Assembly: GCA_021790475.1 (NCBI GenBank)
Contig: JAJYDU010000008.1
Span: 1 to 35,495, forward strand
Direction: 5' to 3'
Source: Planctomycetota bacterium
Lineage (GTDB): Bacteria; Planctomycetota; Phycisphaerae; WQYP01
Length of the DNA stretch: 35,495 bases
Shown: piece after piece, positions 11,434-35,369 of the stretch
Numbering within the stretch: the first letter of the stretch is position 1
Layout: each line of letters starts with the position of its first letter
Translations under genes and position numbers: made by a program
The notes under the pieces: model-generated
What the model was told of the DNA's origin: nothing
Database searches by the model: none
The model's input: only the letters and a program-made list of their open reading frames with translations

Positions 11434-11487
11434 ATGAAAAATGTCTGCGAGCCACATGATTCCCCAACAGAAGGCACTGTGTTTTAA
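11434..11487 (+). CDS. Putative 17-residue leader peptide coupled to the downstream glycosyltransferase
   Basis: ATG 11434 follows AAGGAG by about eleven bases. The frame (MKNVCEPHDSPTEGTVF) ends at TAA 11485-11487, whose last A is the first base of the ATG of the next gene (TAATG). The glycosyltransferase start has no ribosome-binding site of its own. This arrangement suggests translational coupling, with ribosomes reinitiating after the short peptide. The peptide has no recognisable regulatory residues. It could be chance, but the overlap and the ribosome-binding site favour a real reading frame. Confidence 0.45.
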   Translation: MKNVCEPHDSPTEGTVF

Positions 11488-13031
11488 TGCTCTCGATTGC
11501 CGGTAGTATATTTAACGCGCTTTACCTGATCGTGCTGGGTGTCTTGACTGTTTATGGTCTGCACCGGTACTGGGAGGTCATCCTCTATTATTGGACCGGA
11601 CGCAAAGGACATCTCGCTCCTCCGGAGCCGCGGGAATTCCCGGATCTTCCTCCAGTTACCATTCAGTTGCCCATGTTTAACGAGCGATACGTAACCGTCC
11701 GGGTCATTGAGACCGCCGCCCGTATGGATTATCCCCGGCGCCTGCTCCAGATACAGGTTCTGGACGATTCCACCGACGATTCCGCCGAAATCGCCCGGTC
11801 AACTTGTCAACGGTTGCGGGAGGCGGGCCACGATATCCAGTACATACACCGGAACAATCGTTTCGGTTACAAAGCGGGCGCCCTGGAAAATGGCCTGGCT
11901 ACCGCCAAAGGCGAATTCATCGCTATTTTTGATGCCGATTTCATCCCACCGCCCGACATGCTCCGCGGCGTAATACATCATTTTACCGATCCCGCCGTCG
12001 GTTGCGTACAAACCCGCTGGGAACACATCAACCGCCGCCATTCACTGCTGACGTGCTGCCAGGCGATTTTCCTCGACGGACATTTTGTCATTGAACATGC
12101 GGCGCGCAACCGCAGCGGGCGGTTCATCAATTTCAACGGCACCGGCGGGGTATGGAGAAAAAGTGCCATTGTCAGTTCCGGCGGCTGGCAGCACGATACG
12201 CTTACCGAAGACCTGGATCTGTCCTATCGCGCCCAGCTTCTTGGCTGGAATCTGGTTTTCCTGCCCAAACTGATCTGCCCGGCTGAATTACCGCCGGAAA
12301 TCGTCGCGTTCAAGCGGCAGCAGCATCGTTGGACCAAGGGAAGCGTTCAAACGGCGGTCAAACTTCTGCCATCCCTGCTCCAAAAACCCCTGCCTTTACG
12401 GGTCAAAGTGGAAGCGTTTCTCCATCTGTGTTCCGGTGTGGTTTATCCCATGGCGGTTTTGCTTTCGCTGCTTCTATTTCCGACGTTCTTTCTGGGCGGG
12501 CCGGGCATCCTTTTTCCCGCTTCCGCGGTGCTCCAGGGAACCCTCCTGGCGATGTTCATCATCCTGACCTTTTCCGCGGGCACCTTCTACGTGGTGGCGC
12601 AGAGGGAGCTTGGAGAAAGCTGGATTCGCGCCATATTGCGAATGCCCATGCTGATGGCCGTGGCCATGGGCATCAGCCTGGCCAACGCTTTGGCCGTGTT
12701 CGAAGCTCTTTTTCGGTATCATAGCGAATTTATACGCACGCCCAAGTACGGCATTCAGTGCGATACGCCGTCCAATGCCTGGAAAAGTCGTGCGGCCGGG
12801 TTCCGCCAGAAGATCAATTGGTTGCCCTTCGCCGAGATTGGTCTGGGCTTGTATCTATTGTTGTGCGTAATTGCCGCCGTGGTTCTTCAACGCGCGGTGA
12901 TGTGCATTCCTTTTCTGTTGATCTTCATGTGCGGTTACCTGTATGTCGGTATTTTGTCCCTGTATGCGCAATGCGCGCCCCGCCGTGGTAAAGTCAACGA
13001 TTCCGCTTTCGCCCCCGCCATGGCGGGCTGA
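11487..13031 (+). CDS. Processive GT2 membrane glycosyltransferase (cellulose-synthase/CslA-like)
   Basis: The 514-residue product has an N-terminal membrane helix (about 8-28), a cytosolic GT2 domain and at least four C-terminal helices (about 300-320, 330-365, 385-405 and 455-495). The catalytic motifs of processive enzymes are complete: VLDDS (91-95), FDADF (148-152), TEDLD (240-244) and QQHRW (278-282). The form resembles the glucomannan/mannan-synthase-like branch (CslA-type) rather than BcsA, since no PilZ domain is present. It probably polymerises a beta-linked polysaccharide from nucleotide sugar while extruding it across the inner membrane. The product cannot be told from sequence. 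No export partner is adjacent; the next gene encodes a small anchored protein of unknown role 14 bases on. Confidence 0.9.
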   Translation: MLSIAGSIFNALYLIVLGVLTVYGLHRYWEVILYYWTGRKGHLAPPEPREFPDLPPVTIQLPMFNERYVTVRVIETAARMDYPRRLLQIQVLDDSTDDSAEIARSTCQRLREAGHDIQYIHRNNRFGYKAGALENGLATAKGEFIAIFDADFIPPPDMLRGVIHHFTDPAVGCVQTRWEHINRRHSLLTCCQAIFLDGHFVIEHAARNRSGRFINFNGTGGVWRKSAIVSSGGWQHDTLTEDLDLSYRAQLLGWNLVFLPKLICPAELPPEIVAFKRQQHRWTKGSVQTAVKLLPSLLQKPLPLRVKVEAFLHLCSGVVYPMAVLLSLLLFPTFFLGGPGILFPASAVLQGTLLAMFIILTFSAGTFYVVAQRELGESWIRAILRMPMLMAVAMGISLANALAVFEALFRYHSEFIRTPKYGIQCDTPSNAWKSRAAGFRQKINWLPFAEIGLGLYLLLCVIAAVVLQRAVMCIPFLLIFMCGYLYVGILSLYAQCAPRRGKVNDSAFAPAMAG

Positions 13032-14157: not shown

Positions 14158-14348
14158 ATGTGGGACCGATGCCCCATTGGCCAATGGTGAATTCGTCCGG
14201 CACCAAGGCGGGCCGCGGTAACGGTCTGCGTCGTCGGGTTCGCGTCGCGACGAATAGAGAACCGCTGATCGAAATGTATCAAAAAAGACCTTGCCGAGTA
14301 TAATCGAATATACTTTGGCACACCGATTGCTCGGCAATTCACGCCAAA

Positions 14349-17403: not shown

Positions 17404-17534
17404 GGGTGTGGCCGTATTTTTTGGCAAAGCTGGTCCCAGCCGCCTCGTTAGCCGAAAAAAGGAATTCTCTTCATAGAGGTGAACACCGTGTTAAACCGGT
17501 TTTTGCATTGTTGCCAAAAAAAACGGCCACCCCC
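17404..17534 (-). mobile_element. MITE-like element, copy A (131 bp)
   Basis: It has inverted ends, GGGTGTGGCC (17404-17413) and GGCCACCCCC (17525-17534), each followed inward by a T- or A-run and TTGGCAA/TTGCCAA. It is flanked by an exact 8-bp direct repeat, CCCGCCAC, at 17396-17403 and 17535-17542. It matches copy B (35180-35309) in the opposite orientation along its whole length. No coding frame is supported, so it must be mobilised by a transposase elsewhere. It occupies much of the 374-base gap between mltA and the phosphodiesterase gene, where I see nothing else. Confidence 0.85.
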
Positions 17535-19224: not shown

Positions 19225-19812
19225 CTACGCCCGCTGGCGGTAAAGCGCCGGATCAATGGCCGCGTGCATAGCCTGAAGATTCATCGGTCGCGAGAGAAAC
19301 GCGGCGATTGCCTGAATCCACTCGTGGGGATTTTGCACCAGCTGGCGGTACTCGATGTTGCACACGGCAAAATTCGGCTGCCGGGCGAGCCACTGATCGA
19401 TGGCGGCAATTTCGCGGGCAAAAATATCTCCAAGTTGCCTGTCGCTTAGCCCTGTGGCGGTGCCGGAACGTCCCTTGAGCATGGCCCGCTGTGAGGCAAG
19501 CACCTCGTTGCGATCGCGCCGCATAAAAATGACGCGATAAGAATAGTCCGCCGGCAGATCGTAAAGCAACCGATAGATGATCTTCACCGCTTTGCCGGGG
19601 GCGCCGGCGAGCCATTGAGGATTAGTCCTGGTGAATTTGACGGCTTCAAATTCGTAATAACCGCGCGGATTGTTTTCATCCGGCGCGCGCTGGGAATCGG
19701 TAAGAATCGATATACCGCCCGCGGCGAGCATCTGCATCATCAGCGACGTGCCCGACCGCGGCAAACCGGAAACAATAATCACCGGTTGCGTATCCAACCG
19801 CGCGCCGGTCAT
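19225..19812 (-). CDS. Sulfotransferase-family protein
   Basis: I prefer the ATG at 19812 because GGAGG stands seven bases before it; an ATG at 19842 would add ten residues and has a GGAG only three bases upstream. The 195-residue product begins with the PAPS-binding loop VIIVSGLPRSGTSLMMQML (11-29), with Lys/Arg and Ser/Thr as in the 5' phosphosulfate loop. YRVIFMRRDRNEVLASQRAML (about 96-116) fits the 3' phosphate-binding motif. It is shorter than many sulfotransferases. The acceptor is unknown; it may be a glycan or lipid. It is directly downstream of a methyltransferase gene, 50 bases after that gene's stop, so both may modify the same molecule. Confidence 0.85.
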   Translation of the reverse strand: MTGARLDTQPVIIVSGLPRSGTSLMMQMLAAGGISILTDSQRAPDENNPRGYYEFEAVKFTRTNPQWLAGAPGKAVKIIYRLLYDLPADYSYRVIFMRRDRNEVLASQRAMLKGRSGTATGLSDRQLGDIFAREIAAIDQWLARQPNFAVCNIEYRQLVQNPHEWIQAIAAFLSRPMNLQAMHAAIDPALYRQRA

Positions 19813-19862
19813 ATCCAAACCTCCAGAGAAGTTCAAATTCATTATCTCCGTTTCTGTATGCG

Positions 19863-20585
19863 TCACCCATGAGCTTTCCGCAGCCGCGCCACCAGCAGGA
19901 CGTTGGCGAAGGGCGTACCGCGGCTCATGGGTAAGGCGTCCACCGTGAAACCCAGCGACTCCAATGCGCCCGTCCAGTTCGCCACAGACCGGCAATACAA
20001 CCGGCGAAGGCGATGGCCGCGCGCCATGATAACCAATAGATCAACCCAGTAGCTCAAGACAAATCGCAGTCCGCCCGCAGTGTTGCCCACCCGCAGCAGC
20101 AGCACCCCGTGCGGGCAGAGCGAATCGCGTACCCGCCGCAGCACCCGGTCTTGTACGGAAAAGTTGAAGTAGTGCAATACATCGAAAATTACCACCACAT
20201 CCGCCGGACCAAAATCGCCGGTACGAATATCGCCCTGTACAAACTCGGCGCTCTCGCCCAGCGCCCGCCTGGCCCGCCACACATCGCGGGGCATCATTTC
20301 CATGCCATGGATCCACGTCGGTTGCGGCGCTGGCGGCCAATTCCGGGGCCAGTCGCCGGCGACATACCGGCTTTGCGCCGCCCGCAGCCATGCGGCCAGA
20401 AGTCCCTGGCCACAACCCAAGTCGTGAATACGGGCCTGCGGCGGAATCAGGCCTCTCTCCAGCAAAGCGGTAAAGATCGGGTCGCCACGAAGCTTACCGC
20501 GGGCGAAATGCCATGCGAAACAACCGACTGCCCGATACGGTGCGGCAGCGGTGGCGACCAGTTCGGATATCCAGGGCGAATTCAT
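19863..20585 (-). CDS. SAM-dependent class I methyltransferase
   Basis: I start at ATG 20585 (MNSPWISELVATAAAPYRAVGCFAWHFARGKLRGDPIF); the frame upstream reads as repeat-like noise. The 240-residue product has motif I IHDLGCGQGLLAAWL (53-67), then GDIRTGDFGPADVVVIFDVLHYF, which are the SAM-pocket motifs. The pattern of the middle and end (VRDSLCPHGVLLLRVGNTAGGLRF, ARGHRLRRLYCRSVANWTGALESLGF and PMSRGTPFANVLLVARL) resembles methyltransferases found beside aryl-polyene and related lipid-pigment clusters, but no other such gene is in the window. The acceptor is unknown. It precedes the sulfotransferase gene. Confidence 0.8.
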   Translation of the reverse strand: MNSPWISELVATAAAPYRAVGCFAWHFARGKLRGDPIFTALLERGLIPPQARIHDLGCGQGLLAAWLRAAQSRYVAGDWPRNWPPAPQPTWIHGMEMMPRDVWRARRALGESAEFVQGDIRTGDFGPADVVVIFDVLHYFNFSVQDRVLRRVRDSLCPHGVLLLRVGNTAGGLRFVLSYWVDLLVIMARGHRLRRLYCRSVANWTGALESLGFTVDALPMSRGTPFANVLLVARLRKAHG

Positions 20586-20959
20586 TTCCCGTGGTTCATC
20601 ACCGCCCGCGTTTTCTTTGATGAAGCCTGGTAAATCGCCTGGCCCGGCCGGTAGCGCGGTCCCGCACCGTTCCGACCCTGTCCGACTGCCATCGGGATTC
20701 CGATGGCTACCGGGATCAGAACGATATTTTCGCCCGTTTGACAGAGAGCGTCTCATTGGCCGGTGGAATCTCCGTATGACGATGCAACTCCAGTTGGCTC
20801 CTCCGGAACACATTTTAACAAAGAATAAGCATTTGCGTCTTCTCTCGTACATTGCCGATTTCCCCCCCCCGCGGCAATGACGGGCGGATAACGACGTTGT
20901 ATAATTAGTATGGCCAATCAGGACGATTGTTCGTGTTCCCGGCTGGAGGTTTTTTCTTT
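20586..20959. other. Noncoding gap between the methyltransferase and pterin dehydratase genes
   Basis: This gap of 374 bases between divergent genes holds a perfect hairpin, CCATCGG-GATT-CCGATGG (20689-20706), followed by CTACCGGGAT, which is related to the palindromes at 7014 and 14349. A run of ten C is at 20865-20874. The plus-strand part just before the pterin dehydratase gene (around 20900-20908, TATAATTAG) may contain its promoter. I see no gene in the gap. Confidence 0.45.
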
Positions 20960-25198: not shown

Positions 25199-25388
25199 TC
25201 GTCGCGCCGGGGTTTGACACCGCAAAGCAACCACCGCTACCATCCGGGCGGATAGTCCGCCCGGAGTCGCAAATCCGACCATGGCCGCAACAGGATGGAT
25301 CGTCGGTGCTTTCATTATGAAGGATAGGCCGGCGCGGAAGAATAACCGGTTTCCGGCGGCTTATATTATAAACTATTTACATGATCGG

Positions 25389-27374
25389 ATGAAACCACAC
25401 ATGCTTACCATCACCCTGCCGGACGGCGCAAAAAAACTTTTTGACGCCACTGTCGTCACCCCCCGGGAGGTGGCCGGGACGATCGGCCCCCGGCTGGCGC
25501 GCGACGCCATCGGCGCTTTGATTAACGGCCAATTGAGCGACCTGAACGCCCCGATTCGCAGCGATGCGGCGGTGGCCATTATCACCGCGACGGCCGGGGA
25601 TTCCCACGCAACGTATCTGCTGCGCCACTCCTGTGCCCACGTGCTGGCCGAGGCCATAAGCACTCTTTTTCCCGCGGTCAAGCTGGCCTACGGCCCGCCG
25701 GTGGAGGAAGGTTTTTATTACGACATGGAACTCGCCGATCCGATCCGACAGGAAGATTTCGCCCGCATTGAGGCGGAAATGGCGCGAATTATCGCGGAGA
25801 ACCGGCCGTTTACGCGCTATGAAATGCCGCCTGCCGAGGCGTTGAATAAACTGCAACGGGAAGGCAATCCCTACAAGGTGGATAATGCCCGGCGCGCGCT
25901 GGAACAGGACGCCAATACAACCATAAGTTTTTACGCCACCGGCGACCCGGGCAAAAACTGGGAAGATTTGTGCCGCGGGCCACACCTGCCGGCGACGGGT
26001 CGCATCGGAGCGTTCAAGGTTACCGGCGTGGCAGGCGCCTACTGGCACGGCGACGCCTCGCAGCAGCAGCTGCAGCGGGTATATGGAACGGCTTTTTTTT
26101 CCAAGGCCCAACTGGACGCCTGGCTGCTCCAACTGGAGGAGGCAAAAAAGCGGGACCACCGGGTGCTCGGAAAACAATTAGGACTTTTCACCATTTCTCC
26201 ACTGGTCGGCGGTGGATTGATATTGTGGATGCCCAAGGGCGGTGTGGTGCGGCAGGAATTGGAAAACTTCATGCGGCAGGAACTTTCCCGCCGCGGTTAC
26301 AGCGGGGTATACACGCCGCACATCGGCAATGTGAATCTCTACAAAACCAGCGGGCATTATCCTTATTACAAAGAATCGCAATTCCCGACCATAAAAATGA
26401 AGGAGCGTGACGACGGCGATACGAGCGAATACCTGCTCAAGCCGATGAATTGCCCGCATCACATTCAGATTTACGCCGCGGAACCACACAGTTATCGCGA
26501 TCTGCCGATTCGCCTGGCCGAATTCGGAACCGTGTACCGCTTCGAACAATCGGGCGAGCTTTCGGGAATGACGCGCGTTCGGGGCTTTACCCAGGACGAC
26601 GCACACCTGTTCTGCACGCCCGAACAGGTGGAAGCGGAGCTGCGCAGCACGGTGGAGATGGTGTTGCTGGTGTTCCGAACACTGGGGTTCAACGAGTACC
26701 GGTGCCGGGTGAGTTTACGCGCCGCGCACTCCGACAAATACGCCGGCGATCCCGCGTTATGGGATCAGGCGGAGGCGACGTTGCGAAAAGTTGTTCGCGA
26801 AGTGGGCGTACCGCACGAGGAGGCGATCGGCGAAGCCGCCTTTTACGGCCCGAAGCTGGATTTTCTGGTGAAAGACGTGATTGGCCGGCAATGGCAGCTC
26901 GGAACCGTGCAACTTGATTATGTGCTGCCGGAGCGATTCCAATTGGAATACATCGGCGCTGATAACGCCCCCCACCGGCCGGTGATGATTCACCGCGCGC
27001 CGTTCGGATCCATGGAGCGGTTCACGGGAATTCTGATTGAACATTTCGCCGGCGCTTTCCCGGCCTGGCTGGCGCCGGTGCAGGCGATCGCGCTTTCCAT
27101 CAGCGAAAAATTCGTCGCCTATGGCCGGCAGGCAACGGAGAAAATTTCCGCGGCGGGTGTGCGCGTGGAGATGGATGCCGGCGACGAAAAGATCGGCGCA
27201 AAAATCCGCCGGGCGCGGGAGCGGAAGATTCCTTATTTACTCATTATCGGATCCCGGGAGCAGGAAACCGGCGCCGTGGCGGTGCGCACACGCCAGGATC
27301 AGGATCTGGGCGCCATGCCGCTGGAAGCCTTTATCGCCAGGTTATTGACGGAAATCAGCCAGCGGAAATATTAG
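25389..27374 (+). CDS. thrS: Threonyl-tRNA synthetase
   Basis: From ATG 25389 the product has 661 residues; ATG 25401 is also possible, and the frame open upstream lacks family sequence. Domains: TGS (about 5-67), editing domain with H80, H84, C195 and H199 (HSCAH and LCRGPH), and class II catalytic core. The core has LKPMNCPHHIQ (C355, a zinc ligand), motif 2 FEQSGELSGMTRVRGFTQDDAHLF with H406, and motif 3 VMIHRAPFGSMERF with the third zinc ligand, followed by the anticodon-binding domain (AWLAPVQAIALSIS). It charges tRNA-Thr and clears mischarged Ser. The editing residues are intact. infC, rpmI and rplT, which often follow thrS, do not. Confidence 0.97.
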   Translation: MKPHMLTITLPDGAKKLFDATVVTPREVAGTIGPRLARDAIGALINGQLSDLNAPIRSDAAVAIITATAGDSHATYLLRHSCAHVLAEAISTLFPAVKLAYGPPVEEGFYYDMELADPIRQEDFARIEAEMARIIAENRPFTRYEMPPAEALNKLQREGNPYKVDNARRALEQDANTTISFYATGDPGKNWEDLCRGPHLPATGRIGAFKVTGVAGAYWHGDASQQQLQRVYGTAFFSKAQLDAWLLQLEEAKKRDHRVLGKQLGLFTISPLVGGGLILWMPKGGVVRQELENFMRQELSRRGYSGVYTPHIGNVNLYKTSGHYPYYKESQFPTIKMKERDDGDTSEYLLKPMNCPHHIQIYAAEPHSYRDLPIRLAEFGTVYRFEQSGELSGMTRVRGFTQDDAHLFCTPEQVEAELRSTVEMVLLVFRTLGFNEYRCRVSLRAAHSDKYAGDPALWDQAEATLRKVVREVGVPHEEAIGEAAFYGPKLDFLVKDVIGRQWQLGTVQLDYVLPERFQLEYIGADNAPHRPVMIHRAPFGSMERFTGILIEHFAGAFPAWLAPVQAIALSISEKFVAYGRQATEKISAAGVRVEMDAGDEKIGAKIRRARERKIPYLLIIGSREQETGAVAVRTRQDQDLGAMPLEAFIARLLTEISQRKY

Positions 27375-27489: not shown

Positions 27490-29130
27490 TTACCGCGCCT
27501 CGGTCTGATTTTCGAAATGCAGAACCTGGGCATAAATGAGCGGACTAACGCCCCCCAAATAGATGCTCTGGCGATGATATGCCACGAGATTCATAGCAAC
27601 TTTTCGGGCCGCCAGTTGACGCTGAATATTTCCTGAAAAATGTTTCCTGGTCCGATGGGAGAAATCGATGACCCACAGGCTGGCTCCCGGCTCAGCAAGC
27701 GACCGTTTGGCGGCCGGTAATGCCGCCAGCCAGGAATGGCGCTGCCGCCGAAGGTACCATAATACATTAACCGGCATCGCCCCAGACTTGGCCATGAACA
27801 CGATTTGCGTCTGCTGATCGGCGCCGGAAAAAACTTCCCGCACGATCTGCCGCGTCTGCTCCCATCCGCGGCTGATCCAGGGATGATAAACATTTATCAT
27901 CGCGGCAATGATGGCGAAGATCGCCATAGCCGTACACGCACCCGCCACGGCGGTTTGTATCGCCCGGCGATGATTGGCCACGGCACGCAACAAATATACC
28001 ACGCCGCTGAAAAGTCCCAGTGACGCCAAAAGCATGATCGCTGGAACCAGGTGCTGTTCCACCCGGGCGTCGCGCCCGTAGGGATAGGCGCGCAAGAATG
28101 ACGCAGCCAGTGTGGCCAAGAATGGTGCAACAAGCAGGACCAGCTCCGCTCCGCGGCCACGACGCCAGAGCCGCCATGCTCCCAGCCAGCACAGCGGAGA
28201 AATCAGCAGTGAAACGCCCCATTCTCCACCCATCGGATAGCTCATCATGTTGCCAAATTGAGATCGGATCAGCCACCAGCCCAGCTGCCAATCCAAGGGC
28301 GGAAAGGCGGTACCCCAGGCACGCACGATACCCTGTTGACGGGTCGCATGCAGTTGCCCGCCGGCGACCTTAAAAAATAGCACACCAAAACATCCCAGCA
28401 GAATTACGTTATACAACACCCACAATGTTGTGCGTGCGGTGGAGCGAATTTTCCACCAGCGCGCCGCCAGAGCCAGGCTCACCGCTCCGGCGACAAACAC
28501 CGCTGGATAGGAGAAAACCAGGGCCAGCGGTGTGAATAGAATCAGCAGCAACGGCGGAATCCAGTCGCGCGGCCGCCGCAGCGCCCGGAGTCCCAGGCCC
28601 GTGTAACCAAGGGCAACCAGGAGATCGATGGAGTACGGCTTAAAGTCATTGCTGAAGCGGGCCGGCGAAAGCGAACATGCCAGCAAACCCGTCGCGAGCA
28701 GCGCGACCCAAGGCCCGGCAAACTTGCGGGCGATCGGATACATGAGCAGTATGCTGGCCAAAGCGGCCACGAGAGGCACAAATCGCACCACGAAGGAGGA
28801 TGTACCAAAATGAACTATCATCCATTTACTCAGCCAGAGAAAACCGACCGGGCAGGCCTGGTCGTAGCTCAGCGGTCGCAGCAGGCCCACATACGAACGG
28901 TCCAGGATGTTCAGCCCCACCGCCGCCTCGTCGCCCCAGATCGGAAAATTGAGAAAATAACGCCCCAATCGCCAGGCCAGGCCAATGGACACAAGCAGAA
29001 TCAGCCAGAATCTTCGCGATCGCAGCAATCTTGTAAAAAATCGCCCCGCGTAATTCACGGTGAAAATCCGCCGCGGTCTCTTCACCGTGGCTGCCTGTGA
29101 TTTGGTCAAGGCTGGTATCCCCGCAGTCAA
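27490..29130 (-). CDS. Multi-pass GT-C glycosyltransferase-like membrane protein
   Basis: The 546-residue product has a basic N terminus, then a membrane helix (about 40-58) and roughly ten further helices up to about residue 400, ending in a soluble C-terminal domain of about 150 residues. The first periplasmic loop has NFPIWGDEAAVGLNI, with the acidic pair D-E as expected for the lipid-linked donor site of PMT/ArnT-type GT-C enzymes. SPARFSNDFKPYSIDLL is also typical. It probably transfers a sugar from a polyprenyl-phosphate donor on the periplasmic side, but donor and acceptor are unknown. It is the last gene of a four-gene minus-strand set with FkbM, GT10 and GT2 genes, after a 136-base gap. 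Confidence 0.8.
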   Translation of the reverse strand: MTAGIPALTKSQAATVKRPRRIFTVNYAGRFFTRLLRSRRFWLILLVSIGLAWRLGRYFLNFPIWGDEAAVGLNILDRSYVGLLRPLSYDQACPVGFLWLSKWMIVHFGTSSFVVRFVPLVAALASILLMYPIARKFAGPWVALLATGLLACSLSPARFSNDFKPYSIDLLVALGYTGLGLRALRRPRDWIPPLLLILFTPLALVFSYPAVFVAGAVSLALAARWWKIRSTARTTLWVLYNVILLGCFGVLFFKVAGGQLHATRQQGIVRAWGTAFPPLDWQLGWWLIRSQFGNMMSYPMGGEWGVSLLISPLCWLGAWRLWRRGRGAELVLLVAPFLATLAASFLRAYPYGRDARVEQHLVPAIMLLASLGLFSGVVYLLRAVANHRRAIQTAVAGACTAMAIFAIIAAMINVYHPWISRGWEQTRQIVREVFSGADQQTQIVFMAKSGAMPVNVLWYLRRQRHSWLAALPAAKRSLAEPGASLWVIDFSHRTRKHFSGNIQRQLAARKVAMNLVAYHRQSIYLGGVSPLIYAQVLHFENQTEAR

Positions 29131-29266
29131 TATTTCAAGAGCGTTTCCACAACCGGTTGTCTGAGGGTGTGGGCTAGCTGGCTGAATTCCGTTTTTATTT
29201 TTCGCATTTTATCCCTTGGCATTGATTCTTTAATCAAGGGACATTTTTGGTTTGAAACGGCTTTCA

Positions 29267-30031
29267 TCAACCCACAATGGATTTCAAGCTGGAGTATACC
29301 AGATGTCTTCCTGGCCTGACGTCGAACCAGGGATTCTCCAGCATGACACCCGCCGTGCGGAGGTTCTCTTGAAAACGAACTAAATTGTATGGTGGATGAA
29401 GTTCCACTACAATATAAACGATATGATGAATCCAATTCCGGCAGTGGGAGAATAGTTGTGTCTCGGCCCCCTCAATGTCGCATTTGAACAAATCCACTCG
29501 CTGGGCTGGTTTGAAATCTAAATTCAACAAATCGGATATTGTTGTCCTGGTAACGCGGAGTGAGCCTGGTAGTTCCACCTCACTCATTCGAAACATGCAT
29601 GACTCCGTCGATCGATCCAGAAATGCTTCGCCGGCCCGATCTCCAGCAAAAGACTGAATGGAAGTTACCCTATGAGCATAGCCGCCGGCATCAATATTCT
29701 TCTGGAGTTGTCTATAATTATTTGGATCCGGTTCAAGAACAATAATTAGGGATTCCGGAAGATATTTCTGCCAGTACCGAACTGAATAGCCGACGTTCCC
29801 GCCAAGAGCCACAATCGTTTTGACGGGTTTTGGGCACCTTTCGACGGCGGGGAGGTATTCTTGCGACCAGAATAACTCTCGCAAGACGGCGATATCTGAT
29901 GTATAAGGCCGGACAAAAAGCGGTTTATCCCAACCGCGGAGTTGGAACTGAAAATCCGAACGTCGTCCTGGGAACGGCAGCTTGCGATAACGCTGGAGAA
30001 TTCGAAGGTATTCGAATTTAAGCCAGGACAT
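29267..30031 (-). CDS. FkbM-family methyltransferase
   Basis: The 254-residue product has the SAM region KTIVALGGNVGYSVRYW (71-87), VLEPDPNNYRQLQKNI and LFKCDIEGAETQLF (about 182-195), which together define the FkbM family; these enzymes O-methylate sugars or other metabolites. In motif I the usual Asp of VDVGANVG is replaced by Ala-Leu (VALGGNVG), a small departure. CAGGA precedes ATG 30031. The gene is more AT-rich by eye than its neighbours, which suggests separate acquisition. It stands between the GT10 and GT-C genes and may methylate their glycan. Confidence 0.87.
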   Translation of the reverse strand: MSWLKFEYLRILQRYRKLPFPGRRSDFQFQLRGWDKPLFVRPYTSDIAVLRELFWSQEYLPAVERCPKPVKTIVALGGNVGYSVRYWQKYLPESLIIVLEPDPNNYRQLQKNIDAGGYAHRVTSIQSFAGDRAGEAFLDRSTESCMFRMSEVELPGSLRVTRTTISDLLNLDFKPAQRVDLFKCDIEGAETQLFSHCRNWIHHIVYIVVELHPPYNLVRFQENLRTAGVMLENPWFDVRPGRHLVYSSLKSIVG

Positions 30032-30112
30032 GAAATCCTGGAAATGCCGGCGATTTCGCTATTTCCGTGAAAAAGTGCCGTACCATGAGTCAGCCATAAC
30101 AATTTTGCCTTG

Positions 30113-31003
30113 TTAGATGGGCGTATGAATCGTGATCGGCCGGCGCCGGCTCAGCAGATCCGGTTTTTCCGCGATGGCCGTGAAGTAGCGGAAAATATTC
30201 AAACGTTTCCGGAGAATTTCGCGCTGCGCCAGCACCGCCGGCCGGCGCCGGGCATATTCCTTTGGCCAGTGGTTCCAATCGATTTTGTCGGCATCGGCCA
30301 GCGGCACGAAACATTCCGGCAGAAAATAGTCCCGCCAGTTGAGCACACCCTGGTAAACGGGTACGGCTTCATTCAAGATCACATCGGCGAATTTTTCGGT
30401 GAAATAATCGAGAATCTGATTATTCTCAATGCCGATGCTGAACGCATAGTCGCGAAGACCCAGGTATTTCTGATTATCGGTGTCGTCGCGGCCGTGGGCG
30501 CCGAAAAGTTTGCGACGAAAGAATTTTCCGTAACCGTCCAGCCCCCCCACCATTTTGTTCATTCGTTTCAGGAGTTGGTTGCGCCAGGAGTATTTTCCAC
30601 TTTCGATGGCGGAACATTTGCGGCTTTTGGGGTTGCTGGTCGGCGGCGACCAGAATAGCAGCGGCGGCGCCCACCAGGTATTCGGCAATTCGGGCGCGTT
30701 GTTAGTAAAGCGCGCGACCGACGGAGATTCGCGGCACAATTCGGCCGGTTCCGTGTGCAGACAAAATTTTACTCCCCCCAGATTTTCCAGATAGTCGATA
30801 TCCCCTGGCGACGCGCCACCCACGCAAATGGTGTAATCGGCCGCAAGGCTCACCTGTTGCGTATACGGCTTGTCGGCCATGGCCCAGGGCAGTATCCACG
30901 TGGTTTGCATTTCCCGGTCGTGGGCATACGGGAAAAGGTAGCGAATTCGCGCCGATCCTACGCACAGAACTAGATTATGTTCCGGCTTTTCCCAGTAATC
31001 CAT
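30113..31003 (-). CDS. GT10-type (alpha-1,3-fucosyltransferase-like) glycosyltransferase
   Basis: The 296-residue product contains GGLDGYGKFF (153-162), comparable to the VDVYG motif, and YAFSIGIENNQILDYFTEKFADVILNEAVPVYQG (186-219), the donor-binding block of GT10 enzymes (FENS...DYVTEK...GTVPVYxG), then DYFLPECFVPL. These enzymes use GDP-fucose, and the conserved Glu and Lys of YFTEKF bind it. No signal peptide or membrane segment is seen, so it is probably cytoplasmic. The first 100 residues are divergent. It lies between GT2 and FkbM genes in the glycan locus. Fucose specificity is inferred from the family. Confidence 0.85.
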   Translation of the reverse strand: MDYWEKPEHNLVLCVGSARIRYLFPYAHDREMQTTWILPWAMADKPYTQQVSLAADYTICVGGASPGDIDYLENLGGVKFCLHTEPAELCRESPSVARFTNNAPELPNTWWAPPLLFWSPPTSNPKSRKCSAIESGKYSWRNQLLKRMNKMVGGLDGYGKFFRRKLFGAHGRDDTDNQKYLGLRDYAFSIGIENNQILDYFTEKFADVILNEAVPVYQGVLNWRDYFLPECFVPLADADKIDWNHWPKEYARRRPAVLAQREILRKRLNIFRYFTAIAEKPDLLSRRRPITIHTPI

Positions 31004-31063
31004 GTGAATCGATATTCCTCTTGCGGGTGCTGAGAAGCGCCGGCGCCGGCTTTCCGCGCGAAT

Positions 31064-32038
31064 CTAATCACGCCGTGGCGGTGCGTCAACAGGCATCCGG
31101 CGCTTCGCCGTCCGGTGCGTACGCAGAGCTTCCAGAGTACCGTGGCAGGTCATTCGCCGGATATGCTGGTTAATTTGCCCCTTCTGATAGCCGGCAACCA
31201 CCGATAGTTTTTCCATCGCGGCATAAAAACCGATTTTTACTCCGTTTTCTATCAAGATTTTTCCATAATGATACGGGGATAGATCGTGCATTGTGAGAAC
31301 TTTTCCCAAACCAAGACCGCGGGCCGCTCGGCCGAGATAATCCATGGTAATGCGTTCCGGGGCCACCCAATGGCGAATGGAAGCGCGCGGCGCGTAGAAC
31401 ATCCGGTGGCCCGCGGCCAAGGCACGGGCGATAAAATCGGTATCTCCGCCGCCCACCACCTGCCGGCCAACCCGATCCACATCGGTGCGGAATTGTGACA
31501 CATCCTTCAGCACACACCGGCGGATCGCCAGATTGGCGGAGATAGCTTCGCCGGCGGTAAGCAGCTCGCGAACCCGTGAACCGTAATCCACACAGCTTAA
31601 TAAATGTGCGGAACGATGCGTCAGCCATCGCGGCCTGGCCACCGCGTCCCACCAGAGTTCCACACGACCGGCAACAAGACCGGCGGGGTACTGTGCGAAC
31701 ACCTCCAGAAGCCCTTCCAGCCAGCGGTGTTCCACGAATACGTCATCATCCAGGAAAGCCAGAATATCGCCGCGGGCCTCGGCCAGGAGACGATTGCGGG
31801 CATGGGAGGCGCCGACGTTTGATTCCACGACCCAGCGCAGCGGCAAAGGAAACGATGCCGCCAGCGCGGCGCATACGTCGGTGGTGGCATCGGTGCAGGC
31901 GTTGGCGACAACCACAATTTCCGCCATGATCCCGTGCGGCGCCTTCACCTCTCGCAGACTCTCCAGCGTGCGGCGCAGCAGCTGGGCACGGTTATGGGTG
32001 GGAATGAGAACGGAGATGGCGAGAGTATCCGAAGCCAT
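31064..32038 (-). CDS. GT2-family glycosyltransferase
   Basis: The 324-residue product has the GT-A nucleotide-sugar fold: ISVLIPTHNRAQLLRRTLESL (8-28), VVVANACTDATTDV, VESNVGASHARNRLLAEARGDILAFLDDDVFVE (with the LDDDV metal motif) and GGGDTDFIARALAAGHRMFYAP. It probably adds a single sugar to a lipid-linked or surface glycan in the cytoplasm. No membrane segment is clear. It is the first gene of the minus-strand glycan set, divergent from the DUF268-like gene across 234 bases in which I see no gene. Confidence 0.9.
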   Translation of the reverse strand: MASDTLAISVLIPTHNRAQLLRRTLESLREVKAPHGIMAEIVVVANACTDATTDVCAALAASFPLPLRWVVESNVGASHARNRLLAEARGDILAFLDDDVFVEHRWLEGLLEVFAQYPAGLVAGRVELWWDAVARPRWLTHRSAHLLSCVDYGSRVRELLTAGEAISANLAIRRCVLKDVSQFRTDVDRVGRQVVGGGDTDFIARALAAGHRMFYAPRASIRHWVAPERITMDYLGRAARGLGLGKVLTMHDLSPYHYGKILIENGVKIGFYAAMEKLSVVAGYQKGQINQHIRRMTCHGTLEALRTHRTAKRRMPVDAPPRRD

Positions 32039-32272
32039 AATGACCTTTGCATAATACCCGGGAGGCGTTCGTCTTACTTGGCGAGCCGCGATACCACTTG
32101 CCTACGGGTTCGCCACCCACCGTCGGTGTCTTAGCGGCCTGCAACCTCCCCATTGTCGAACCAGACGGTATAATTCGCAATCGCCGCGGCTTACCCGGCG
32201 GCGGCATCCATAGTATCCGCCGCGAATACGGGGCGATGGTGCGAACAACGGGTCCATTTTGGCGGGCGTGAA

Positions 32273-33064
32273 ATGATCCATCTGCGCAAACCCATTACGT
32301 GGCGGCGATTGAAAAAGAACCTGTATCGCCCCTGGGGAAAATATGCCGGGAAAGTCGATCTTTTCATTGCTTACCGGCGCTTTCGCCGGTTGGCCGCGGC
32401 GGATCATCGGTTTGAGATTCGCTGGCGGGATCGCGATCCCGGGGGAGAAAACAATGTCCAAGGAGCCGGCGGGGGAACAGATTATGCGCGCCACGCCGCC
32501 TGGGCGGCGCGCCAGCTGGAAAGAATAAATCCAACTTATCATATAGACATTACAAACGATATGTTTCTTTATGATTTGGCCCTGTCCGCGGCGCCGCCCT
32601 CCGGAAATGGCTATCGCCCGGCCCGGCTGCGCCTGGGCGCGGGGGCCTGCGGCCGCGGCGATCTGTGGCGACTGCCTTTTCCCGACAAGAGCGTGGAATC
32701 CATTGCCTGCCTGCACGTGGTGGAGCACGCGGGGCTGGGCCGCTACGGCGATCCCTTGAATCCGCAGGGAGATCTCCAGGCGATCCGCGAGTTGCGGCGC
32801 GTGGTTCGCCAAGGCGGACATTTACTGCTGATCGTGCCGGTAGGCCGGGCGCGCATCCGCTTTAACGCCAACCGGGTTTATTCTCCCGCCCAGATACTTT
32901 CCTACTTTCATGACATGACGCTTCTTGAATCCGCCCTGCTCGCCGCTGACGATCAGCGCCCGGAAGATCTGATTTTTGGCACGCCAGAAGAAATATTTCA
33001 TCAGCAATTGGAAGGCACGGGGTGTTTCCTGTTTCAACGTCCGCGACAGGCGCCATCTCCCTGA
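32273..33064 (+). CDS. DUF268-like / methyltransferase-related protein
   Basis: The 263-residue product has the pattern of the DUF268 proteins. The core RGDLWRLPFPDKSVESIACLHVVEHAGLGRYGDPLNPQGDLQAIREL (about 128-175) and VVRQGGHLLLIVPVG match a SAM-methyltransferase-like C-terminal half, but the usual glycine-rich motif I is weak (RLRLGAGACGRGDL). It may be a methyltransferase or a non-catalytic relative. In other genomes such genes occur in O-antigen and exopolysaccharide loci, which fits its place here, next to GT2 and a sugar-locus unknown. No good ribosome-binding site precedes ATG 32273. Confidence 0.75.
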   Translation: MIHLRKPITWRRLKKNLYRPWGKYAGKVDLFIAYRRFRRLAAADHRFEIRWRDRDPGGENNVQGAGGGTDYARHAAWAARQLERINPTYHIDITNDMFLYDLALSAAPPSGNGYRPARLRLGAGACGRGDLWRLPFPDKSVESIACLHVVEHAGLGRYGDPLNPQGDLQAIRELRRVVRQGGHLLLIVPVGRARIRFNANRVYSPAQILSYFHDMTLLESALLAADDQRPEDLIFGTPEEIFHQQLEGTGCFLFQRPRQAPSP

Positions 33065-33313
33065 ATTCCTCTCCCGCCCCATCCCACCTGTTCCCCTGGC
33101 GCCAGCGAGCCTCTTACCGGCCGGCAGCTTTTAAGCAGAGCCAACCGCCCCGCTCGCCGGCCCGTGGACAACCGGCTACTTGTTCCCGGCGATTGCAGAT
33201 AAAATGGATTAATGTTACATGACGCACGCCCAAGGCGGGCGGTTAGGAAGGATGCCTTTAGTTGAACCGCGCCGACGGATGAATATCCGCCGACGGCCGG
33301 AAAGGAGCGCCAA

Positions 33314-34375
33314 TTGTCTCGTCGTCCATTTAGATTCCTGCGCCGGTTGACCCGCAATGAGATGGACGCGAATGAATTTCTCGCCTGCCCGCCCCCGATG
33401 ATTCCCCGGATGGACATGCGGGACGTTGAACATATTGTTTTTTATAATCATTTTCATAATGGCGATGTTTACCTGGCGCGGGGGATTGTGGCGGGGTTGA
33501 TGCGCGCCTATCCAAATAAACGGTACACTTACACGCATGGTTGTCCTGGCGATCTCCTGCGGGATATTGATGCGATCCGGCATGAGGGCGAGCTGTGGCG
33601 CCGTCTGCCGAAGGACCGTCCCTACCTGATCCACAAGCCGGCGGGAACGGTATTTATCAATACCTGGATAGGGTGTCTGGGACCATCCATTGTGCGGGAG
33701 CGCGGCGGCGTTAACATTGTTCTGCTGCATCAGATTCTCGCGGCCACGGTGAAAAGAACGCTCGGCGCGGACATTTTGCCGCTGGCCCAATGCGTACCCG
33801 ATCCGGACTATTCAAAATTTCACATCCAGGCGATCCGTGGATTTGTCGAGAGCGACACCCGGCGGAAAATTCTTATTTCCAACGGCAATCCTCTCTCCGG
33901 CCAAAGCGCCCCATTTGATTTCACGCCTTTTATCACAAGCCTGGCCCGCCATTTTCCGGACGTTCTGTTTATTCGGACCAATCCCGGCACGCCGGGACCG
34001 CGTCTTTCCAACGTGATTCATTCCGCGGACATTATTCAAAAAAAAGGCCCGGATTTAAACGAAAATGGCTATCTGAGCACCTTCTGCGACGCCATCATAG
34101 GCCGCAGTTCGGGGGCGTATACTTATTCCATCAATCAGGCCAATCTGCGGACGCGTAAGATTTTTCTGAGCTTCGTCAACTTTCCGATCGAAGCAAGTCT
34201 GGGGTTCGACGAACCGGTATTTTCCGGCCGCTGTTTGTTCATCGCCTCGAACGATTATCGCGAACACTTCATGCTTCGACGCATGATTCAGGGGGTGCAA
34301 GCCGCGGTTGCGACCGGCCCGTTTCCAAGCGGCCCGCCGGGCGTCCGAGACGAGACGGCGCTCGAGTATCGATAG
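33314..34375 (+). CDS. Unrecognised protein of the glycan locus (GT-B-like?)
   Basis: I do not recognise this 353-residue protein. The start is TTG 33314, chosen because AAAGGAG stands six bases before it. The N-terminal part has VEHIVFYNHFHNGDVYLARGIVAGLMRAYPNKRYTYTHGCP (about 38-78), recalling the GD-loop and helix of heptosyltransferase-like GT-B enzymes. Near the end SADIIQKKGPDLNENGYLSTFCDAIIGRSSGAYTYSI looks like a GT-B donor site, where a Gly-Arg-Ser-Ser loop would hold the phosphate. No signal peptide or membrane helix is seen. It follows the DUF268-like gene, with a 249-base gap with no other gene. Confidence 0.65.
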   Translation: MSRRPFRFLRRLTRNEMDANEFLACPPPMIPRMDMRDVEHIVFYNHFHNGDVYLARGIVAGLMRAYPNKRYTYTHGCPGDLLRDIDAIRHEGELWRRLPKDRPYLIHKPAGTVFINTWIGCLGPSIVRERGGVNIVLLHQILAATVKRTLGADILPLAQCVPDPDYSKFHIQAIRGFVESDTRRKILISNGNPLSGQSAPFDFTPFITSLARHFPDVLFIRTNPGTPGPRLSNVIHSADIIQKKGPDLNENGYLSTFCDAIIGRSSGAYTYSINQANLRTRKIFLSFVNFPIEASLGFDEPVFSGRCLFIASNDYREHFMLRRMIQGVQAAVATGPFPSGPPGVRDETALEYR

Positions 34376-34455: not shown

Positions 34456-34528
34456 GGGGACGTAGCTCAATTGGGAGAGCACTGCCTTTGCAAGGCAGGG
34501 GTTGCCGGTTCGAGCCCGGTCGTCTCCA
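34456..34528 (+). tRNA. tRNA-Ala(UGC)
   Basis: A 73-base cloverleaf: acceptor GGGGACG/CGTCTCC with G3-U70, the main identity pair of alanine tRNA, D arm GCTCAATTGGGAGAGC, anticodon loop CTTTGCAAG (UGC), T loop GGTTCGAGCC and discriminator A. CCA is not encoded. Confidence 0.96.
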
Positions 34529-35179: not shown

Positions 35180-35309
35180 GGGTGTGGCCGTTTTTTTGGC
35201 AACAGGACAATAACTGGCTTAACACGGTGTTCACCTCTATGAAGAAAATTCCTTTTTTCGGCTAACGTGGCGGCTGGGACCAGCTTTGCCAAAAAATATG
35301 GCCACACCC
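35180..35309 (+). mobile_element. MITE-like element, copy B (130 bp)
   Basis: Ends GGGTGTGGCC (35180-35189) and GGCCACACCC (35300-35309) are perfect inverted repeats. The flanks are AGTGAAGA (35172-35179) and AGGGAAGA (35310-35317), an 8-bp duplication with one mismatch. It matches the reverse complement of copy A along its length. It separates the nuclease-family gene from the IS end and has no coding frame of its own. The gap 35056-35412 holds little else. Confidence 0.85.
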
Positions 35310-35369
35310 AGGGAAGAAGCGCGCCTTATTTTCTGAAAGGACTCGCTATAGGGTGGAGGTACGGTCTGA

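Follow-up and report, generated by a model that had tools for sequence, protein, structure and literature searches.

We analysed a 35,495-nucleotide stretch of a Planctomycetota bacterium genome (GenBank assembly GCA_021790475.1, contig JAJYDU010000008.1; hereafter, the window), in which six adjacent genes at positions 27490-34375 encode a GT-C glycosyltransferase, an FkbM-family methyltransferase, GT10 and GT2 glycosyltransferases, a DUF268 protein and an orphan protein. In the best explanation of this locus, to which we give about an even chance, the six genes constitute one lineage-variable glycan-assembly module that would build an O-methylated 6-deoxyhexose glycan, with the DUF268 protein as a candidate fucose O-methyltransferase. 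The locus as such is of an ordinary kind, a variable glycan cluster, yet it is real and coherent, and the worthwhile result is the candidate role of DUF268 in fucose methylation, which is drawn from genomic context. The window is the whole of contig C50 in a genome of 2.68 Mb and 214 contigs, about 91% complete (G000). All six open reading frames (ORFs) described in an earlier note on this DNA are present on the strands it gave; five families are confirmed by Pfam or NCBIfam, and the sixth protein has no match (Table 1).

The DUF268 protein passes the thresholds of two Pfam families, DUF268 (61.5 bits for a cut-off of 25) and Methyltransf_11 (27.2 bits for a cut-off of 21.2). The genes of the locus were searched for in 61 genomes, 28 of which, including G000 itself, belong to the taxonomic family of the bacterium. 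GT10 was found in 16 of the 61 (15 within the family) and DUF268 in 6 (5 within the family); for the GT-C gene the number is 28, and for the orphan it is 4. Each of the five DUF268-bearing genomes of the family (G000, G001, G007, G015 and G008) has GT10 within 4 kb. In G007 and G015 the genes practically touch, in the order DUF268-GT10-GT2, and in G008 the contig ends within the nearby GT10. The probability that all five would possess GT10, given its presence in 15 of 28 family members, is P = 0.03, only a rough figure because the genomes are related; it accounts for presence alone, and the closeness of the genes comes on top of this. A sulfotransferase gene also adjoins the GT2-GT10-DUF268 set of G007. 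The window protein gave no DUF268 match in plasmids and named phages, and four weak plasmid matches appeared with a relative as query.

DUF268 genes are also found in virus contigs. A first scan with a DUF268 alignment yielded 8 loci, and a wider scan yielded 80, reduced by dereplication to 25 clusters, one of them added by hand. The DUF268 ORF was called in 78 of the 80 loci; it was masked by an opposite ORF in the hand-added L126, and the other locus belongs to no cluster. In 11 of the 25 clusters, all 11 verified by Pfam, a gene of GT10 or of GT11, a further fucosyltransferase family, is no more than 6 kb away from DUF268; four have GT10 and seven others GT11. The set of neighbour proteins selected comprised 75 of 136, without the five clusters of solitary DUF268 genes and without a number of small genes and phage structural genes. 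The solitary genes stand among short genes in many small phage contigs, and their cluster representatives (L161, L138, L142, L118 and L149) show no GT10, GT11 or gmd matches. Loci L112, L114 and L116 show a GT2-like gene, DUF268, a gmd 52-56% identical to that on contig C58 of G000, and last a single large protein; in L113 such a protein comes directly after DUF268, with no gmd between. According to Pfam, the large protein is composed of GT10-FkbM-GT2 in L112 and L114 and of GT10-GT2 in L113 and L116. In terms of these predicted domains, the large protein is the window's own gene set in fused form. The four contigs, all from uncultivated viruses, are assigned to tailed phages because a major head protein gene (L112) and a head-closure gene (L113) lie beside the cassette. 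It is possible that the cassettes of these four loci serve to produce a phage-made methyl-fucose glycan.

The six genes also behave as a block. The same-genus genome G001 carries it on contig C61, elsewhere in the genome, with five of the six genes and a partly deleted FkbM (blastn); the identities to the window are 88% for GT-C, 92% for GT10, 91% for GT2, 82% for DUF268 and 91% for the orphan. An assignment to single assorted genes was rejected, the block having been kept and moved as a unit relative to G001. In G001, DUF4254, a sugar C-methyltransferase, a GDP (guanosine diphosphate)-mannose-dehydratase-like gene and another FkbM begin 18 bp past the block, and thrS is on a different contig. 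In G000 the DUF4254/C-methyltransferase/dehydratase-like half is situated on a separate contig, C108, 3' of a kdpA-like gene (named from its translation). The break relative to C108 falls at a shared CGATAGCC, and the right breakpoint of the block comes directly after the stop codon of the orphan. Since G003 and G006 share the arrangement of orphan, C-methyltransferase and dehydratase-like gene, with DUF4254 in between in G006, the gene order of G001 is likely ancestral and the window block moved. FkbM bases 29445-30026 are absent from the G001 copy, as seen from the blastn gap and the breakpoints, and G001 has another FkbM (31% identical) in the interval from GT2 to DUF268, with a copy of the GT2 start on either side of it. 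FkbM is a labile, variable position of the locus. Subsets of the block genes recur in other genera, and the genes are linked to one another rather than to unrelated pathways; conserved links of the latter kind were what the earlier note had named as refuting its interpretation.

The same note had asked whether the genome possesses gmd and fcl, and both are there: gmd on C58 passes its cut-off (2e-162), side by side with an fcl homologue. The latter has GDP-L-fucose synthases as its best PDB matches (1e-69) and reaches 296 bits with NCBIfam GDPFucSynFcl (4e-88), under the 500-bit cut-off. A second pair of gmd and an fcl-like gene is present on C140, where gmd is cut by the contig end. Thus, the two enzymes of the known Gmd/Fcl GDP-L-fucose pathway are adjacent on C58, but they lie outside the locus, and Fcl is under the NCBIfam equivalog cut-off. 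As previously claimed, the window itself holds no nucleotide-sugar genes and no Wzx, Wzy or ABC exporter, at least among its 27 ORFs scanned with Pfam, some small ORFs being unscanned. Nucleotide-sugar genes occur in the genome outside the window, and in G001 some adjoin the block; one flippase-type gene was found in the genome, on C74, far from the locus. Collectively, the presence of gmd and fcl and the linkage of the genes leave the earlier proposal of a methylated, fucosylated glycan as the best reading, except that methylation is tied more strongly to DUF268 than to FkbM. The accompanying suggestion, decoration of S-layer-like or outer-membrane proteins, was dropped, as nothing in the locus or its relatives speaks for it.

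There is a real possibility, although we hold it short of probable, that this is a fast-evolving surface-polysaccharide locus of loosely assorted genes, whose DUF268 methylates any sugar and whose fucosyltransferase link is a by-product of fucose-rich loci. Locus content does vary across the family, the FkbM genes of the two same-genus copies differ and many viral DUF268 genes are without GT10 or GT11; against such loose assortment argue the proximity of DUF268 to GT10 in five of five family genomes and, in virus contigs, direct adjacency or the order DUF268-gmd-GT10. Furthermore, GT10 is present in the four Pfam-verified viral DUF268 clusters and in 0 of 77 FkbM control loci, 7 of which carry GT11. 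These controls were retrieved by a DNA pattern of the FkbM motif because alignments were too divergent or gave 3 loci. DegT control loci had GT10 or GT11 in 0 of 11, a small and closely related set left after removing 4 of the L132 type. On the other hand, several observations weigh against the best explanation and the fucose role that it gives to DUF268. The cluster contrast with FkbM loci (11 of 25 versus 7 of 77, Fisher P = 0.0003) is favoured by the FkbM set, in which near-duplicates were kept and the flanks were shorter (7.6 kb examined on average, as compared with an average locus length of 10.9 kb for the representative DUF268 loci), and it is not significant when counted by locus (14 of 80 versus 7 of 77, P = 0.16). 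The gmd loci have GT10 or GT11 in 28 of 80 cases and DUF268 in 0 of 80; DUF268 is therefore no general companion of fucose pathways. Five DUF268 clusters, accounting for 54 of the 78 clustered loci and mostly lying in small-gene phage regions, are without GT10 or GT11, and gmd occurs in only 2 of these 54 loci; such solitary viral genes speak against an exclusive fucose role. G032, a genome outside the family whose DUF268 is 33% identical, has no GT10 match at all. In the putative stretch of the canonical glycine-rich S-adenosylmethionine (SAM) motif, the window DUF268 has HIDITND where most phage copies keep HxDIGS. Fucose is only a putative donor of GT10, since the similarity of this enzyme is confined to the C-terminal domain. 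Finally, the initiating Bac_transf enzyme of an undecaprenyl-phosphate sugar-1-phosphate transferase pathway gave 0 matches in the genome, which is about 91% complete.

The sugar in question could also be another one. We consider it unlikely that GT10 transfers, in place of fucose, a virenose-type 3-C-methyl 6-deoxyhexose synthesised by the C-methyltransferase together with the dehydratase-like enzyme. The ancestral locus does bring together a 3-C-methyltransferase and a dehydratase-like gene, as in the virenose-type pathway proposed for Coxiella, although here they are off the window, on C108. D-mycarose 3-C-methyltransferase (4rv9, 2.8e-57) and TcaB9 are the closest matches of the C-methyltransferase on C108; in G001 the block adjoins the genes of both enzymes, which are also next to the orphan in G003 and G006. 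However, no C-methyltransferase was seen among the genes around the GT10-DUF268-GT2 sets of G007 and G015, the dehydratase-like protein reaches just 116 of the 415 bits required by the gmd cut-off, and an ordinary pair of gmd and fcl is present in the genome as well. A different doubt concerns the window join, which might be an assembly chimera of the metagenome bin, the place of the block between thrS and tRNA-Ala then being unreal. The bin does consist of 214 contigs, and the block has another location in the same-genus genome, but the breakpoint has only the above ~8 bp in common with the C108 junction, which we judge to be shorter than assembly joins usually need. A chimera is thus quite unlikely, and it would not change which genes the block contains.

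Under the preferred reading, a methylated 6-deoxyhexose glycan, the following steps can be proposed. GT2 and the orphan, as a GT-B enzyme, would build the acceptor in the cytoplasm, to which GT10 would add L-fucose, or another GDP-linked 6-deoxyhexose, from the GDP-fucose made by Gmd and Fcl. DUF268 would then O-methylate the GT10-added residue using SAM, and FkbM would methylate a further position. The lipid-linked product would then cross the membrane to the periplasmic side, on which the GT-C enzyme would attach a sugar taken from a polyprenyl-phosphate donor. A branched-chain sugar could be supplied by three genes of the ancestral locus that here lie apart on C108, namely DUF4254, the sugar 3-C-methyltransferase and the GDP-mannose-dehydratase-like gene.

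The individual enzymes are compatible with these steps to different degrees. GT10 scores 34.7 bits with Pfam Glyco_transf_10 (cut-off 23.9), and a profile of 9 homologues matches FucTA (9s6a, 3.6e-11), FUT9 (8d0o, 4e-9) and Helicobacter pylori FucT (2nzw, 1.5e-7). A Y-x-TEK motif and the arginine of a WR pair, which we take to be donor-site residues, are invariant in all 9 homologues. The window GT10 has in common with these three enzymes the C-terminal donor-binding region with Y-x-TEK; it differs from them in being short (296 residues), in its unrecognised N-terminal acceptor part and in its partner methyltransferases. GT2 shows no membrane segment in a crude scan, and its homologues directly adjoin GT10 in G001, G007, G015 and G021. 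The GT-C protein scores 27.5 bits with PMT_2 (cut-off 26.1), and a crude scan of its hydropathy picks out 6 strongly hydrophobic segments; the Asp-Glu pair of its WGDEA motif, an acidic pair in the first loop, is invariant in 7 of 7 homologues. Because of its GT-C family membership, it is predicted to act on the periplasmic side, where it likely transfers from a polyprenyl-phosphate sugar. Of the 15 GT10-bearing genomes of the family, 6 (G000, G001, G018, G021, G024 and G027) have the GT-C gene no more than 2 kb from GT10. In G021 (L070, 10480-13682), two consecutive GT-C genes, 71% and 40% identical to that of the window, stand beside GT10-GT2, which suggests a duplication.

The orphan is restricted to 4 of 397 genomes of the class. 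Its relatives come from the Planctomycetota bins FK4.bin106, LSA5.bin36 and ZJ4.bin39 (G001, G003 and G006, respectively), names of a type that presumably denotes mine drainage. Its TTG start is uncertain, with an ATG at codon 17. None of the four members has a Pfam match at E<=10, and the window protein has no match in plasmids. The predicted structure is poor, with a mean pLDDT (predicted local distance difference test) of 57.6, and a second prediction with trimmed ends was no better (55.0). The best fold matches are the GT9 heptosyltransferases TibC, WaaC and WaaF (Foldseek E 6e-3, Z 5.2-6.5), which the tools themselves flag as weak: Z is 6.5 with a root-mean-square deviation (rmsd) of 11.0 over 174 residues, and for the N-domain Z is 6.3 with an rmsd of 3.4 over 100. 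The genome holds several GT9 genes, and a profile comparison with 14 of the 22 GT9 ORFs on its list was insignificant (probability 0.4%, E 0.16); in this alignment the invariant NGD of the orphan lines up with the GT9 GD region. Membership of GT9 was rejected, as none of the four members matches Pfam Glyco_transf_9 and the profile alignment is insignificant. Thus, the orphan resembles WaaC, WaaF and TibC in the weak fold match and in NGD/GD but differs in lacking a sequence-family match and in its narrow distribution. From these weak fold matches, it is probably a lineage-restricted GT-B transferase.

The DUF268 family is named from Caenorhabditis in its Pfam title. Passages of a 2023 glycome paper place worm DUF268 proteins in glycosylation gene clusters and describe the fucose-modifying methyltransferase of worms as still to be identified (PMC7614267); passages of a 2019 review likewise state that the methyltransferases of worm glycans are not known (PMC6422873). 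In the part of a 2012 survey that deals with them, 11 DUF268 genes are counted, 9 with signal peptides (PMC3534327). The window protein belongs to the same Pfam family as these worm proteins, but it is bacterial, has no membrane segment and is encoded beside GT10. A whole-word literature search found no function for DUF268 in the matching passages (PMC7614267, PMC3534327), and later or subscription papers may contain one. Searches on planctomycete fucose or O-antigen, mine-drainage bins and nematode fucose methyltransferases found nothing naming the locus among the papers listed. As a tentative and rather doubtful extension, DUF268 might be a conserved family of fucose(-glycan) O-methyltransferases of bacteria, tailed phages and nematodes, with the worm members being the fucose methyltransferases sought in C. 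elegans. If this is true, the phages that carry the cassette next to head genes would use methyl-fucose either to glycosylate their virions or to alter the surface of the host. Methylated sugars of worm glycans, fucose included, are targets of fungal defence lectins. The small soluble DUF268 proteins of bacteria and phages, with adjacent GT10 and gmd, would offer an easy assay system for fucose-methylating activity.

Table 1. Positions, in the window, of the six genes, their neighbours and the block shared with G001
Feature	Position	Strand	Evidence
GT-C glycosyltransferase (PMT_2), multi-pass membrane protein	27490..29130	-	Pfam PMT_2 4.2e-6
FkbM-family methyltransferase	29267..30031	-	Pfam 6e-9, TIGR01444 7e-14
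GT10 (alpha-1,3/4-fucosyltransferase family) glycosyltransferase	30113..31003	-	Pfam GT10 1.8e-8
GT2 glycosyltransferase	31064..32038	-	Pfam Glycos_transf_2 8.6e-24
DUF268 / Methyltransf_11 protein	32273..33064	+	Pfam DUF268 1.2e-16, Methyltransf_11 6e-6
Orphan protein, probable GT-B glycosyltransferase	33314..34375	+	no Pfam match; weak fold matches
thrS, left neighbour, outside module	25281..27374	+	Pfam
tRNA-Ala(tgc), right neighbour, outside module	34456..34528	+	
Block homologous to one stretch of G001:C61	27512..34377		blastn and breakpoint sequences

The spacers of the minus-strand run are 136, 81 and 60 bp, and a gene with a bifunctional-nuclease domain is found together with tRNA-Ala on the right side of the block. 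Other possible sugar-coat genes of the window, at 11487-13031, 19225-19995 and 19863-20852, encode a GT2-type glycosyltransferase, a sulfotransferase and a methyltransferase, respectively. The window also contains several repeats. A dispersed element of ~131 bp, resembling a miniature inverted-repeat transposable element, occurs at 35180-35310 and 17404-17534, and its inverted ends, GGGTGTGGCC...TTTTTTGGCAA, are imperfect; the contigs of the genome carry more than 15 further copies (~84-95%), and none was reported in the same-genus G001. The segment 35365-35495 is the end of a repeated element with 97-99% copies on other contigs (C36, C184, C1 and others), at their ends or close by, and its frame looks to us like the start of an IS5-type transposase. 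It is likely that this element stopped assembly at the end of the window. A third short repeat family is represented at 14236-14302, ~81% identical to a stretch of C58.

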